NCBI GenBank assembly: GCA_015903945.1
Contig: JABMDL010000009.1
Location: 1-64,000 of the forward strand
Source: Nitrospira sp.
GTDB lineage: Bacteria; Nitrospirota; Nitrospiria; Nitrospirales; Nitrospiraceae
DNA: 64,000 nucleotides
Direction of reading: 5' to 3'
The first letter of the stretch is position 1. Each line of letters starts with the position of its first letter. The translations under genes were made by a program, and so were the position numbers. The notes beneath the pieces are model-generated. The model had not been told where the DNA came from, made no database searches, and was given only the letters and a program-made list of their open reading frames with translations. Positions 29,291-44,027 of this stretch are shown piece after piece.

Positions 29291-29929
<639 letters not shown>

Positions 29930-29942
29930 TGGCAGGTGTAGG

Positions 29943-29962
29943 ATGAACGTGGCCTCGTTCAT
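29943..29962 (+). promoter_or_regulatory. Hairpin between glnB and glnA
   Basis: ATGAACG (29943-29949) pairs perfectly with CGTTCAT (29956-29962) around a six-base loop. With no T tract it is more likely an RNA processing or attenuation element than a full terminator. Confidence 0.4.
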
Positions 29963-30007
29963 GAGACCGGCAGATCACGGTGAAGGATCTCTGTAAAGGA
30001 GGAGCGG

Positions 30008-31417
30008 ATGAACGTGCGTGAGGTATTGGAGTTCGCCAAGAAACACAAGGTTCAATTGGTGGACCTGAAGTTCGTGGATTTGCCGGGCGTCTGGCAGCAT
30101 ATGACCATCCCTGTCAGCGAACTGTCCGAAGATCTGTTCAAAGACGGTTCAGGTCTTGATGGGTCGTCCATTCGGGGGTGGAAGGCCATTAACAACAGCG
30201 ATTTGCTGATGGTGCCGGATCCGGTGACAGCCTGTCTGGACCCATTTACGGCGGTGCCGACGCTCAGCCTGATCGGCAATGTGGTGGATCCCATCTCTCG
30301 CGAGAACTATGAGCGCGACCCCCGGTTTATCGCGCAGAAGGCCGAGAAGTATCTGCAGAGCACTAAGATTGGCGACACATCCTTTTGGGGGCCGGAGGCG
30401 GAATTCTTCATCTTCGACCATGCCCGCTACGATCAAACCAGCCACAGCGGCTACTATTTCCTCGACTCGGAGGAAGGCGCGTGGAACATGGGGCAAGAGG
30501 GATTCAACCTGGGGGGGAAGATCCGCCATAAGCTGGGGTACTTTCCAGTGGCACCCGCCGACACCCAGCAGGACATCCGCAGTGAAATGGTGCTCGAGAT
30601 GGAAAAGGTCGGCATCGCGGTCGAAAAGCATCATCATGAGACAGCGACGGCTGGCCAGGCTGAGATCGATATCCGCTTCGATACCCTGGTCAAGACGGCG
30701 GACAAGATGATGATGTATAAGTACATCGTCAAGAACGTCGCCCGTCGCCACGGCAAGTCTGTGACATTCATGCCTAAGCCGCTCTTCGGCGACGCGGGGT
30801 CGGGGATGCATACGCACCAGAGCATCTGGAAAGACGGGAAACCGTTGTTCGCCGGAAAGGATTATGCCGGAGTGTCCCAGATGTGTTTGTATTACATCGG
30901 GGGCATTCTGAAGCATGCCCCGGCGCTGGCGGCGTTCACGAACCCGACGACGAATTCGTACAAACGCATCACGCCGGGGTTCGAAGCTCCGGTCCTACTG
31001 GCCTATTCCAGCCGAAACCGGTCAGCAGGAATCCGCATCCCCATGTATTCACCGAGCCCCAAAGCCAAACGGATAGAAGTACGGTTTCCCGATCCCGCCT
31101 GCAATCCCTATTTGGCCTTTGCCGCGATGCTCATGGCCGGACTCGATGGCATCCAAAACAAGATTAATCCTGGCGAGCCGGCCGAAAAAGATCTGTACGA
31201 TCTTGATCCGAAGGAAGCCGCCAACATTCCAACCATGCCAGGGAGTCTCAACGACGCGATTGACCATCTGGAAAAAGACCATCAGTTCCTGCTCAAGGGG
31301 GAAGTGTTTACACAGGATTTGATCGACGCCTGGATCGATTACAAACGGAACAAGGAAATCGACCCGATGCGTCTCCGTCCGCATCCCTACGAGTTCTTCT
31401 TGTACTACGACGTATAA
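30008..31417 (+). CDS. glnA: Glutamine synthetase, type I
   Basis: A 469-residue dodecameric GS that makes glutamine from glutamate, ammonia and ATP. Signatures: G-S-S-I-R-G-W, the metal-binding [17 protein letters not shown] and the catalytic-loop region. The adenylylation loop is present as K-D-L-Y-D-L, so the enzyme should be switched off by AMP on that tyrosine, as in GS-I-beta. The GlnE-like genes at 40-44 kb are the expected modifiers. Strong AAGGAGGAG site before the ATG. Confidence 0.97.
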
Positions 31418-39390: not shown

Positions 39391-39546
39391 GAGAGTGTTC
39401 GGATCGCCCGCTCAATCGCGGGCCGCATCCTGTTTGTGGTGTATACGGTGAGGAGACAGAGTCATGAAAAAGAAACCATCCGCATCATCAGCGCCCGACA
39501 AGCGAGCCGGAAAGAGCGTGCGGCATATGCCAGATTCACAGATTGA
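39391..39546 (+). pseudogene. brnT: BrnT-type toxin, 5'-truncated remnant
   Basis: A frame of 51 codons directly after a TAG at 39388. It encodes the C-terminal half of a BrnT ribonuclease toxin: R-S-I-A-G-R-I-L-F-V-V-Y-T-V-R and the hallmark I-R-I-I-S-A-R-Q-A-S-R-K-E-R-A-A-Y. BrnT is normally about 90 residues; the N-terminal half with the first strands is missing and nothing similar lies upstream. There is no start codon in a sensible place, so no toxin is expected. Its 3' part overlaps brnA in another frame. Confidence 0.85.
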
Positions 39547-39757
39547 TTTCTCGGACATGCCGGAGTTGTCCGACCAACAGCTCAAACGGATGAAGCGAGT
39601 CGGCAGGCCTGCCACTGGCCTGGCCAAGCAGTTGATCGCCATCCGTCTGTCGCCGCGTCTTTTGGCAACCTTGCGCACCATGGCGGCCAAGCAGGGCAAG
39701 GGATACCAGACGCTGATTCACGAGTTGTTAGAAAAGGCGGCCTCCCGCGCGGCGTGA
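39464..39757 (+). CDS. brnA: BrnA-type antitoxin
   Basis: A 97-residue protein with the BrnA layout: basic, flexible N-terminus, the core I-D-F-S-D-M-P-E-L-S-D-Q-Q-L, then a ribbon-helix-helix-like C-terminal domain (I-A-I-R-L-S-P-R-L-L-A-T-L-R and Y-Q-T-L-I-H-E-L-L). BrnA neutralises BrnT and represses the brnTA promoter. Start ATG 39464 follows GAGGAGA. It is intact although its toxin partner is broken. Confidence 0.85.
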   Translation: MKKKPSASSAPDKRAGKSVRHMPDSQIDFSDMPELSDQQLKRMKRVGRPATGLAKQLIAIRLSPRLLATLRTMAAKQGKGYQTLIHELLEKAASRAA

Positions 39758-39965: not shown

Positions 39966-42233
39966 TCATACTTTTCCGAACGTCTTCTCGAAAAACTCTT
40001 TCGTCTGGGTCATGTGCTGTTCGATGTCGGTCTGGAGATGCCGTGCGCCGGCTTTCCAGTCGTCAGTGGTATAGCCGACACGGCGGGCGAGGAAGATGAA
40101 TTCGTCGGAATCCACCGGCGGGAGAACCCGATCCTTGGCGTTGCCCCGGACCATGCGGAGGCCGTCAATGAGCATGCGGATGAAGAAATAGGCCTTGCGC
40201 AGTTGCTCCCCGTCTTGCCGCGTCACGATCCGGCAGTCGACCAGAGCCGCCAGAGCCTGCATGGTGTTGGGGGTGCGTAAGACGGGGAGTTTCTGGCCAT
40301 GCATGATTTGGAGGTATTGCACGGCGTATTCAATATCGACGATGCCGCCGGGGCTGTACTTAAGATTCACCGTGTCGCGCTCAACCGATTGCTTCAGCTG
40401 CTGCCGCCGCAAGTCGAGGGCTGTGGGGATGTCCCAGGGGGCGCCGCTGTAGACGTATCGGTCGCGATGCGCCTCGACTCGTTTGCCGAGGGCGGCATCT
40501 CCGGCCACGTACCGCAGCTTGATCAATGACTGTCGCTCAAACGGCGCGGCGAGTCCCGTTGCGCTGTAATAACTGGTGATCTCGTCGAATGGATTGACCA
40601 GAGAGCCTTTCCCTCCGTGAGGCCGCAGGCGCACGTCGAGATGGAAGATGCCTTCTTGTTTGGCCTCGATCCACTGCAATAGTTCATGCCCCAGCCGCTC
40701 GAAGTATTCGCTGTTGTCGATCGGCTGCTTGCCTCCGGTGCGGCCCGCGTCGCCATAGACAAACATCACTTCGATGTCGGAGGCGTAGCCAAGTTCCTTG
40801 CCGCCGAACTTCCCCAGGCCGAGGATCGCGAAGGGACAGGGTTTCTTGTTCGCCAGGCGCGGCGGGCCGTAGAGCTTGTTCAGCTTGGCTTGGCAGTCTT
40901 TCAGGCTTCGGTCCACGATCACGTCGGCCAGCTGCGTCAGCGCCGCCGAGAAGTCGGCGAGGGCGGTGCCCGGCTCGACAATGTGCTTCATGTCGATGCG
41001 AAACATTTCCCGATCTTTGAAACTGTTCAACGCCGCCTTGCGGGCATCGTCGGTCTTGGCCCGATTGACGGCACGATCCAGCGCCTTGCGGAGTGAGGCC
41101 TGTGGAGTGAGGAGGGGGGCATCACGATAGTCCTGCAGCAAGGGGAGCAGGTTGCCGTGCTGCCGGCGGAGAAAGTCCTCCCAGAGAAAATCGCTGGCGC
41201 CGAGCAGGCGGGCAAGAATGGGGAAGGTTTTCTTGTCGCTCAGGACCGCCAAGGTCTGCTGCTGCGCTTTCCCTGTGGTCTCCTGCATGATCAAGTCGAG
41301 AAACTGGTCGAACGCGTCGAGGGCTTTGGCGGGATCGGGGGCCCAGGTAAGGGCATGGGTGAACTGCTTGAGGAGAACAGCCGTCAGGCGCAGCTGCTGC
41401 TGATCGGTAGGATCGGTCAGCTTTTGGCCGAAACGGTTACGCACATGAAAGCGGTCGTGCAGTTTCGAGTCTTCCATCTCGATTTGGGCTTTGGCGATGT
41501 ACACGTTACGCATGGCCAGCGCATTGGCGAACGCGTAGAGAAAGGCCGGCGTGTCGTCCGATCGGATGTCCATGATGGTGTCCGTCGCCGAGCGGCTGTT
41601 GTCGAAGGTAATGTGCACCGGATGGAGCAGGCCGCTGAACGACCCGCGGCGCTTGCCGAGTTGTTCGACCAATTGCCGGTTCACGGCATGGCGGGCTTCC
41701 GCGAATTGATTTGTGTCGAGCAAGCCAATGACAGATCGAAGTTCCTCTCCAAGCCGTGCCTGGTCAACCGGTTCGAACGACACACCGTGAACCGGTTGTA
41801 CGCGGAAGAGATCGACGATCTTCTTGCGGCTCAACCCGGCCCGTTCGGTCGGGCGCCGTCGCAGTCCGCCACGAGGTGTCTTGCCGGCCGATGGAGACGC
41901 TGCATCCGTGAACGTGTAGATCTGGCCTTCATCGATGTTCAGTCCGAAGGCGGACAGGAGCCCGCAGATGGTGGCGAACTCGGCGAAGTAGTCATACGCG
42001 ACGATGGTCAGATCGAAGTGTCCCCCGCTCTGTTCCGCAATCGCCAGTTCGCAGAGATTGTCCAGCGTCAGCCTGGCGGCGAGATGAATGTGCTCCGCGA
42101 CCAACGTCGGCTCCACCCGCAGGAAATATTCCGGGTCCATTCGACTGAGGAAGTCGTGCACAATGTCGGCTGATACATCCTGACAGAGTGGCGTGATGGA
42201 CCGAAAGACCTGTTCCTGGTGGAAGGCAGTCAT
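39966..42233 (-). CDS. Tandem-ACT domains fused to a GlnE-like (adenylyl-transferase half) nucleotidyltransferase
   Basis: A 755-residue protein. An ACT-like domain lies at about 73-110 (F-D-L-T-I-V-A-Y-D-Y-F-A-E-F). A second lies at about 205-290 (T-D-T-I-M-D-I-R-S-D-D-T-P-A-F-L-Y-A-F, ending K-L-T-D-P-T-D), closely resembling the glutamine-sensing C-terminus of GlnD. A helical linker leads to a GlnE-type nucleotidyltransferase: G-L-G-K-F-G-G at 472-478, S-D-I-E at 485-488 and L-D-V-R-L-R-P at 532-538. The helical domain with G-G-I-V-D-I-E-Y follows. The E-L-G-Y variant and the downstream motifs resemble the C-terminal, adenylylating half of E. coli GlnE. Glu replaces Asp at the second acidic position, which the superfamily tolerates. 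Probable role: AMP transfer to glutamine synthetase under direct glutamine control. Confidence 0.8.
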   Translation of the reverse strand: MTAFHQEQVFRSITPLCQDVSADIVHDFLSRMDPEYFLRVEPTLVAEHIHLAARLTLDNLCELAIAEQSGGHFDLTIVAYDYFAEFATICGLLSAFGLNIDEGQIYTFTDAASPSAGKTPRGGLRRRPTERAGLSRKKIVDLFRVQPVHGVSFEPVDQARLGEELRSVIGLLDTNQFAEARHAVNRQLVEQLGKRRGSFSGLLHPVHITFDNSRSATDTIMDIRSDDTPAFLYAFANALAMRNVYIAKAQIEMEDSKLHDRFHVRNRFGQKLTDPTDQQQLRLTAVLLKQFTHALTWAPDPAKALDAFDQFLDLIMQETTGKAQQQTLAVLSDKKTFPILARLLGASDFLWEDFLRRQHGNLLPLLQDYRDAPLLTPQASLRKALDRAVNRAKTDDARKAALNSFKDREMFRIDMKHIVEPGTALADFSAALTQLADVIVDRSLKDCQAKLNKLYGPPRLANKKPCPFAILGLGKFGGKELGYASDIEVMFVYGDAGRTGGKQPIDNSEYFERLGHELLQWIEAKQEGIFHLDVRLRPHGGKGSLVNPFDEITSYYSATGLAAPFERQSLIKLRYVAGDAALGKRVEAHRDRYVYSGAPWDIPTALDLRRQQLKQSVERDTVNLKYSPGGIVDIEYAVQYLQIMHGQKLPVLRTPNTMQALAALVDCRIVTRQDGEQLRKAYFFIRMLIDGLRMVRGNAKDRVLPPVDSDEFIFLARRVGYTTDDWKAGARHLQTDIEQHMTQTKEFFEKTFGKV

Positions 42234-42243
42234 GATATGCCGC

Positions 42244-42249
42244 AGTATA
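42244..42249 (-). promoter_or_regulatory. Candidate -10 element of the ACT-GlnE gene
   Basis: On the minus strand TATACT lies only ten bases before the ATG at 42233; no good -35 is seen. The transcript would have a leader of only a few bases. Confidence 0.4.
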
Positions 42250-42263
42250 CTCCATCCGCTTCA

Positions 42264-42292
42264 TTGTGAGACAGGGACCACGTCAGTATAAT
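42264..42292 (+). promoter_or_regulatory. Candidate promoter of the + strand GlnE-like gene
   Basis: TTGTGA (42264-42269) and a perfect TATAAT (42287-42292) are 17 bases apart. The -10 covers the first in-frame ATG (42291), so translation should begin further on, for example at ATG 42300 or 42303, with almost no leader. Confidence 0.65.
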
Positions 42293-44027
42293 GCGCGCCA
42301 TGATGAGGCCGAAGGGATCTGTCCCCAACAGGTTTGACCGGACTGCGGCACCATCGCCTCCCGTTCGGCCTGATCCGAGGCCGGTGTTGTTGGCGGTTGA
42401 GCCGGATTCCGCGCAGACCCACGCCATCCTCTCTGCCTATGGGTTGAGACATATCGAGCAGGCCGATCGGAATCTCCAGGCCATGGCCGGCGAGCCGCAT
42501 GAACGGTGCCAATTGGCCGAGCTCTTGCCGCAGCTGTTGGAGGCCGTCGCCCGTACCGCCGATCCCGATCAGGCACTCAACCATTGGGAGCGCCTGTTGG
42601 CGAGTGTGGCGCGCACCTCAATGGTCGACTATCTGCAACGCTCGCCGCAGATCCTCGATCTGCTCTGTACGATTTTCGGCAACAGCGATGCCCTGGCTTT
42701 CACCATCATTCGGGACCCCACGCTCATCTATTGGCTGGATGAAGAAGATGTGCGGTCTAGGCCGCCGACGCGCAAGAGCATGGAAGCCGCGCTCCGCCGG
42801 AAGATCGGGCATCTGAAGACGAAGGATCTGCAACTCGATGTGCTGCGCCGGTTTCGCCGTCAGGCGATGCTGCTTATCGGGGTACGCGATCTGTTGCGCC
42901 TCGCCGCTGTGACGGACACGACAGCCTCGTTATCCGATCTGGCCTCCCTGCTGATCCATGCGGCGTATGAAATTGTCGACGTCGATTTGCGTCGACAATA
43001 TGGAGTGCCGATGCACAAGAATCGGCGGGGACGATGGGTGACCACCGGATTCACGGTCATTGGGATGGGCAAACTCGGCGGACATGAACTGAACTACAGC
43101 TCCGACGTAGATATTTTGTACATCTATGAGTCACATGACGGCGAGACCCGAGCACCGGAAAGACATCGGGCGGACAAGCCCGGCGGGGTTGGGATTTCCA
43201 ACGAAGAATATTTCGAGATTTTGGCCCGGGAACTGACGAAGACATTGGCCGAGCCGACGCGGGAAGGGTACATTTTTCGTGTCGATTTACGGTTGCGGGC
43301 CGAGGGATCGGTGGGCCAGCTGGCCCGCTCGCTCGACGGGTATCAGCAATACTGCTTCATGCGCGGCCAGGTGTGGGAGCGGCTGGCGTTGCTCAAGGCT
43401 TGGCCGGTGGCCGGCTCGCCGGAGGTTGGACAGAGGTTTTTGAAGATGGTGAAACCGTTTATCCTGGGGACAGCCGCCAAGCCGACGACCCTGACGGAAG
43501 CCCTGGCGGTGGTGGACGAGGTGCGAGCGGTCAAGGAGACGATCGACCGGCACATGGCTGAGCGAGGGCACGCGCGGCGCAACGTCAAGCTGGGTGTCGG
43601 CGGCATCCGTGAGATCGAATTTTTCGTGCAGACCGTGCAAGTGATCGCGGGCAGGAACATGGCGGGCTTGGTGGATCGCAGCACGCTCAGATCGTTGGAC
43701 CGGTTTGTCCGCTACAAGCTGATGTCCAAGCAGGAACGAGACGAACTGACCGCTGCCTACCTGTTTCTCCGCGACGTGGAACACAAGCTGCAAATGGTCC
43801 ACGATCTCCAGACCCATGCGTTGCCCGAAAATGGGGATGAGATGGAGCGGTGCGCGATCCGAGCGGGATACGGTGCAGGAGACCGAGCGAGTGCCACCGC
43901 CCGATTTCGGGCCGACCACCAGCGCCATACGGAAATAGTCCGCCGGGCGTTCCTGTCGTTCTTTGCCGAACCCAAGACCTCGCCGATCCTGAAGGCGGCA
44001 TTGCGGGCGATTACGGCAAAGGGCTGA
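42291..44027 (+). CDS. GlnE-like (adenylyl-removase half) nucleotidyltransferase
   Basis: Up to 578 residues; the promoter suggests a start at 42300 or 42303. A helical N-terminus with the GlnE pattern L-R-R-F-R-R-Q-A-M-L precedes the catalytic domain: G-M-G-K-L-G-G at 258-264, E-L-N-Y-S-S-D-V-D at 266-274 with both aspartates, and V-D-L-R-L-R at 331-336. The domain G-V-G-G-I-R-E-I-E-F-F-V-Q follows. E-L-N-x-S-S-D and the rest match the N-terminal, adenylyl-removing half of E. coli GlnE. With 946 residues normal for a two-headed GlnE, this is a single-headed protein. It is divergent from the ACT-GlnE gene with 57 bases between. Confidence 0.85.
   Translation: MRAMMRPKGSVPNRFDRTAAPSPPVRPDPRPVLLAVEPDSAQTHAILSAYGLRHIEQADRNLQAMAGEPHERCQLAELLPQLLEAVARTADPDQALNHWERLLASVARTSMVDYLQRSPQILDLLCTIFGNSDALAFTIIRDPTLIYWLDEEDVRSRPPTRKSMEAALRRKIGHLKTKDLQLDVLRRFRRQAMLLIGVRDLLRLAAVTDTTASLSDLASLLIHAAYEIVDVDLRRQYGVPMHKNRRGRWVTTGFTVIGMGKLGGHELNYSSDVDILYIYESHDGETRAPERHRADKPGGVGISNEEYFEILARELTKTLAEPTREGYIFRVDLRLRAEGSVGQLARSLDGYQQYCFMRGQVWERLALLKAWPVAGSPEVGQRFLKMVKPFILGTAAKPTTLTEALAVVDEVRAVKETIDRHMAERGHARRNVKLGVGGIREIEFFVQTVQVIAGRNMAGLVDRSTLRSLDRFVRYKLMSKQERDELTAAYLFLRDVEHKLQMVHDLQTHALPENGDEMERCAIRAGYGAGDRASATARFRADHQRHTEIVRRAFLSFFAEPKTSPILKAALRAITAKG

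Follow-up and report, generated by a model that had tools for sequence, protein, structure and literature searches.

The question raised by this locus is whether an enzyme that adenylylates glutamine synthetase (GS) can itself sense glutamine. The locus lies within a window of 64,000 nucleotides, the whole stretch analysed here, from Nitrospira sp. (positions 1 to 64,000 of contig JABMDL010000009.1, assembly GCA_015903945.1). In the textbook cascade GlnD, PII, GlnE and GS form two linked modification cycles, and the ACT module of GlnD senses glutamine; in this locus the second cycle's enzyme bears the sensor module of the first. A sequence-only reading of the window had described the halves of GlnE as separate, divergent genes, and both open reading frames (ORFs) were found. 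One encodes a 755-aa protein on the minus strand (39966..42233), in which a GlnD-type linker-ACT1-ACT2 module is fused to a GlnE-type GS adenylyltransferase (AT) unit, and is referred to as ACT-AT. The other encodes a 578-aa protein on the plus strand (42291..44027), a predicted stand-alone GS deadenylylase (AR) unit orthologous to the N-terminal half of GlnE. The two start codons diverge from an intergenic stretch of 57 bp (42234..42290). We consider it reasonably probable that this is a split GlnE whose ACT-AT half gives an amino acid, probably glutamine, direct control of GS adenylylation.

Profile searches and structure prediction found GlnE, GlnD_UR_UTase and ACT units. In ACT-AT, all of whose features are on the minus strand, Pfam placed the GlnE nucleotidyltransferase domain (PF03710) at residues 340-587 (40473..41216; 5.5e-43, 147.6 bits, cut-off 24) and the C-terminal GlnD_UR_UTase helical domain at residues 612-752 (39978..40400). 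Residues 17-282 correspond to positions 612-842 of the 850 in NCBIfam UTase_glnD (1e-20). Against the GlnD profile TIGR01693 the protein scores 73.6 bits with a cut-off of 519.4, and so fails as a full-length UTase-HD-ACT-ACT protein; the same profile is matched by 41 of 41 aligned ACT-AT orthologues. Comparison of the module with ten GlnD C-termini using hhalign gave a probability of 99.7 and an E-value of 4e-27 over 226 columns, and the Pfam ACR9 ACT model also matches. The order of the parts is kept and the entire GlnD regulatory module is present: a linker helix region (residues ~15-60, 42054..42191), recognised from the profile match beginning at GlnD position 612 and from alignment with GlnD C-termini, then ACT1 (residues ~61-175, 41709..42053) and ACT2 (residues ~196-295, 41349..41648). 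ACT2 is nearest to ACT2 of GlnD, in agreement with the resemblance to the GlnD C-terminus noted previously. The alignment with GlnD also revealed differences: ACT1 has an insertion of about 30 residues that is mostly disordered (disordered insertion at ~112-129), the helical stretch lying between the two ACT domains is longer, and ligand-loop residues are altered.

AlphaFold models with mean predicted local distance difference test scores of 84.5 and 84.9 contain two alpha/beta units of ACT type. The predicted ACT1 aligned with the GL3 ACT-like domain over 76/76 residues (Z 10.0, root-mean-square deviation (rmsd) 1.5) and the predicted ACT2 with the SerB2 ACT domain over 72 residues (Z 7.5, rmsd 2.7). 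Foldseek E-values were weak for the ACT module alone (best 9.4e-6), and a sequence search of the PDB matched no GlnD structure; the ACT assignment is therefore drawn from profile comparison and structural alignment taken together. On this evidence the protein is predicted to be a GlnE adenylyltransferase unit carrying a whole GlnD-type regulatory module, linker helix included, and the claim that the transferase-like half sits behind two ACT-like domains, located by that reading in residues 70-290, is borne out.

The 578-aa protein matched Pfam GlnE at residues 124-385 (2.5e-59, 201.1 bits, cut-off 24) and GlnD_UR_UTase at 415-557. As pairwise similarity to E. coli GlnE was ambiguous for assigning the AT, the halves were identified from a phylogeny of catalytic units, taken from 18 each of the ACT and solo proteins and from 21 two-headed GlnE (E. 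coli GlnE and 20 belonging to the other classes of the phylum). This separated the solo units plus the N-terminal halves from the ACT units plus the C-terminal halves (Shimodaira-Hasegawa-like approximate likelihood ratio test 99.9), with ACT units and solo units each monophyletic at a support of 100, and another tree gave the same assignment. The grouping identifies the 578-aa solo protein as the predicted GS deadenylylase and the 755-aa ACT protein as the predicted GS adenylyltransferase, together a split GlnE, and so upholds the earlier division into removase and transferase. Neither protein reaches the NCBIfam two-headed GlnE equivalogs PRK11072, PRK14108 and PRK14109 (best 225 and 325 bits, cut-offs 487-724), and no second or two-headed GlnE was found elsewhere in the assembly, which is 93.7% complete.

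The active-site motifs SSDVD and RVDLRLR are intact in the AR. ACT-AT keeps YASDIE (residues 483-488, 40770..40787) and LDVRLRP with invariant acidic residues; the metal site reads D-x-E and not D-x-D, which is a conservative change. Its Glu is invariant in all 41 ACT-AT sequences, including those from GlnD-positive members, whereas the C-terminal halves of two-headed GlnE with a detected metal motif read SDxD.

The distribution of the pair was surveyed in 246 genomes of the phylum, 89 of them from class Nitrospiria (class totals were counted by hand). A strong ACT-AT match was detected in 82 of the 89, among named relatives Nitrospira moscoviensis and Ca. N. defluvii, whilst the other Nitrospirota classes have either a two-headed GlnE of ~930-1200 residues or no GlnE that could be found. 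The AR adjoins ACT-AT in 20/20 class loci inspected, from eight families; seventeen of these are head-to-head, and three (G119, G157 and G163) are tail-to-tail with overlapping ends. Linkage that survives inversion suggests that the two products work together. The best 80 of 367 matches in a contig scan for ACT-AT relatives were nearly all labelled Nitrospira or Nitrospirota, and plasmid records matched the catalytic part of ACT-AT only. Two small class members (G161 and G243) have GlnD and no detectable GlnE pair, and may represent the opposite loss.

Downstream of glnB in the window, glnD is missing. The PII gene glnB (29591..29929, plus strand) retains Tyr51 within YRGQEY (codon 29741-29743) and glnA (30008..31417, plus strand) retains the EKDLYDL adenylylation site, so both modification tyrosines are kept, as had been stated. 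The junction between them (29930..30007, plus strand) is where GlnD-positive relatives carry glnD (~2.7 kb) in the order amtB-glnB-glnD-glnA, with a 4 bp glnB/glnD overlap in several. No glnD separates glnB from glnA in 23 of the 28 sampled members of the genus, among them this genome and two that are single contigs (G147 and G204); the two genes lie 60-81 bp apart, or 245 bp in G218. A GlnD profile search of the genome, at the completeness given above, found no GlnD; a second match (contig C52, a 751-aa frame) scored 22.7 bits, below the cut-off, and is presumed, unchecked, to be of RelA/SpoT type. Outside the genus GlnD is present in 60 of 61 class members by hand count. A tree of glnA and glnB unites all GlnD-less operons in a single clade, and the AT tree, which would suggest two losses, sets G218 apart from the other GlnD-less genomes; two independent losses are not claimed, given the former tree. 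The gene orders and trees indicate that glnD was lost at least once in the comammox clade, and the distribution places the ACT fusion in the ancestor of class Nitrospiria, before that loss.

Two exceptional genomes were also seen. A GlnD in G070 was not accepted as that genome's own, since its contig, of 3.4 kb, also carries a neighbouring glnA fragment of 63% identity and the G070 glnB directly precedes glnA. In G220, besides a separate glnB-glnD locus on C12, there is a second cassette of glnB and glnA that lacks glnD (L198, G220:C131); its glnB is 76% identical and has an altered T-loop, YRGTAY.

An amoA-type ammonia monooxygenase (AMO) gene was detected outside the window (PF02461, E 4.3e-101, G000:C87:601-1308, L238), which identifies the genome as a comammox Nitrospira. 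AMO was found in 17 of 23 GlnD-less genomes versus 2 of 17 GlnD-positive relatives tested, a difference that is confounded by descent and in which some absences may be assembly gaps. Among GlnD-less relatives the ratio of nonsynonymous to synonymous substitution rates (dN/dS) was 0.00-0.12 for ACT2, comparable with the catalytic domain, and 0.09-0.33 for ACT1. The ACT module is under purifying selection in GlnD-less genomes, and this strong selection together with its class-wide presence suggests that it has a real role.

Such a role can be proposed from what is known of separated AT domains of other bacteria, which stay active and shut GS down if unregulated (PMC9249168). A split GlnE would therefore need its own control of the AT, and the fused ACT module is the simplest source. 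In the proposed mechanism the AT would have gained its N-terminal linker-ACT1-ACT2 module in the Nitrospiria ancestor, so that an amino-acid signal, most likely glutamine, could reach the GS-modifying enzyme by a route other than PII uridylylation alone, and glutamine binding to the module would raise AT activity. We infer from the sequences that GS is the substrate, that glutamine is the ACT ligand and makes the AT more active, and that the two proteins act as a pair. With glnD lost, PII would not be uridylylated by GlnD, and GS adenylylation in the comammox clade would be left to ACT-AT, AR and unmodified PII. The ACT-AT half may then be the direct nitrogen sensor of the cell in comammox Nitrospira. 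That the comammox circuit has become a single cycle, in which glutamine on the ACT module sets GS adenylylation directly and PII uridylylation plays no part at all, is put forward only tentatively.

Several observations weigh against direct control by glutamine. Most Nitrospiria have ACT-AT and GlnD together, and near-complete Nitrospirota genomes of families f22, f27, f28, f30, f31 and f38 have a plain two-headed GlnE and no detectable GlnD, which points to repeated loss of GlnD in lineages of the phylum that lack the fusion. The ACT fusion is therefore not needed for GlnD to be lost, and the loss by itself does not prove functional replacement. Moreover, PII is highly conserved in all GlnD-less genomes, with Tyr51 and its surroundings unchanged. 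It is possible, if somewhat doubtful, that unmodified PII, reading 2-oxoglutarate and ATP/ADP, is still the main controller of AT and AR, with the ACT module a minor tuning or assembly element, as the families living without either ACT module or GlnD would allow; the presence of the module throughout the class and the strength of selection on it in GlnD-less lineages speak for more than this. The same Tyr51, on an enzyme bearing a GlnD-type module, could instead suggest that ACT-AT has taken over the substrate of GlnD and modifies PII in place of, or besides, GS, and actinobacterial GlnD does adenylylate PII. This is very unlikely, as the catalytic unit groups with GlnE C-terminal halves inside the GlnE family, the GS adenylylation site is kept, and Tyr51 is often conserved where it is not modified.

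The ACT loops are a further difficulty. The PGLL of the GlnD ACT2 loop is PAFL in nearly all ACT-AT members and PG is absent from the ACT1 loop, and so the ligand, or the way in which it is bound, may differ from that of GlnD. As ACT-like domains can also be protein interfaces, the module could be a ligand-free structural part, for AT dimerisation or AT-AR docking, or could sense an amino acid other than glutamine. We regard this as unlikely. Six loop residues that are invariant in the 41 orthologues (D81, F86, D227, P229, F231 and L232) fit a working pocket or an interface and do not separate the two. The replacement of one AT metal ligand, Asp, by Glu might also be taken as a sign that the pair has been decaying, or vestigial, since GlnD was lost; this is improbable in the extreme, because the Glu is just as invariant in GlnD-positive members, dN/dS is low, and D-x-E occurs in active nucleotidyltransferases. 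Sensing of glutamine by ACT-AT is retained as the favoured explanation, and the proposal of the sequence-only reading, that glutamine could bypass some of the GlnD-PII relay, is partly supported. The absence of glnD from this genome and its clade gives that proposal more support than the reading itself could draw on. An origin as a bypass of missing GlnD does not stand, the fusion being class-wide and older than the loss, and GlnD loss without fusion elsewhere and the changed ACT loops limit the proposal too. Of the points that the reading proposed to survey in other Nitrospirota, the pair is class-wide in Nitrospiria and occurs here without a full-length glnE in the genome; divergence is not universal, and within the class glnD is missing mainly from one clade.

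In the comammox clade amtB as well as glnD has gone from the glnB-glnA operon. GlnD-less genomes have no strong AmtB match; a weaker, Rh-like match to the Amt family was found elsewhere in them, except in two genomes with none. The weaker match agrees with a review that reports an Rh-type transporter in comammox clade A (PMC6311188). Its Figure 3 legend names GlnD in the nitrogen-assimilation region, so that the absence of glnD may be visible in the figure; its text does not discuss such an absence. Beside the split pair, window positions 39464-39757 (plus strand) hold a 97-aa ORF that is ribbon-helix-helix-like and BrnA-antitoxin-like, by sequence only.

A bifunctional enzyme that has been split, with the first enzyme of the cascade dropped in one lineage, offers a natural system for separating direct from relay sensing, and bears on the control of nitrogen assimilation in comammox Nitrospira, which draw on ammonia for energy as well as for growth. 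A literature search, with most subscription journals outside its reach, found no paper that connects GlnE to an ACT domain. E. coli GlnE is also acted on directly by glutamine, and so the novelty lies in the splitting of the enzyme and in its gain of a sensor module. As in E. coli GlnE (PF03710 plus PF08335 twice; 1v4a, 3k7d), both catalytic units have nucleotidyltransferase and helical domains and can be assigned one to one as AR and AT; unlike it, the Nitrospira pair is two genes, with an N-terminal GlnD-type ACT module and a D-x-E metal motif in the AT. The mycobacterial large glutamate dehydrogenase (9hv0, 7jsr) has an ACT-like region that aligns with the linker and ACT1 (Z ~10, rmsd 2.8, 141 residues), but it is another enzyme and only the fold is in common. 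In engineered unidirectional adenylyltransferases (PMC9249168) the AT is likewise functional as a polypeptide of its own, inactivating GS, although these enzymes are artificially truncated and have neither an ACT module nor an AR as a separate partner. Plant ACR proteins such as ACR11 (PMC12702975, PMC3173338) have GlnD-like ACT repeats proposed to act in nitrogen assimilation without GlnD catalysis; they differ in having no catalytic domain, and GS as their target is disputed (PMC12702975). GlnD itself (TIGR01693) shares its C-terminal linker-ACT1-ACT2 regulatory module with ACT-AT, which differs in having no HD domain, a catalytic unit of GlnE type, changed ligand-loop residues and the insertion in ACT1.

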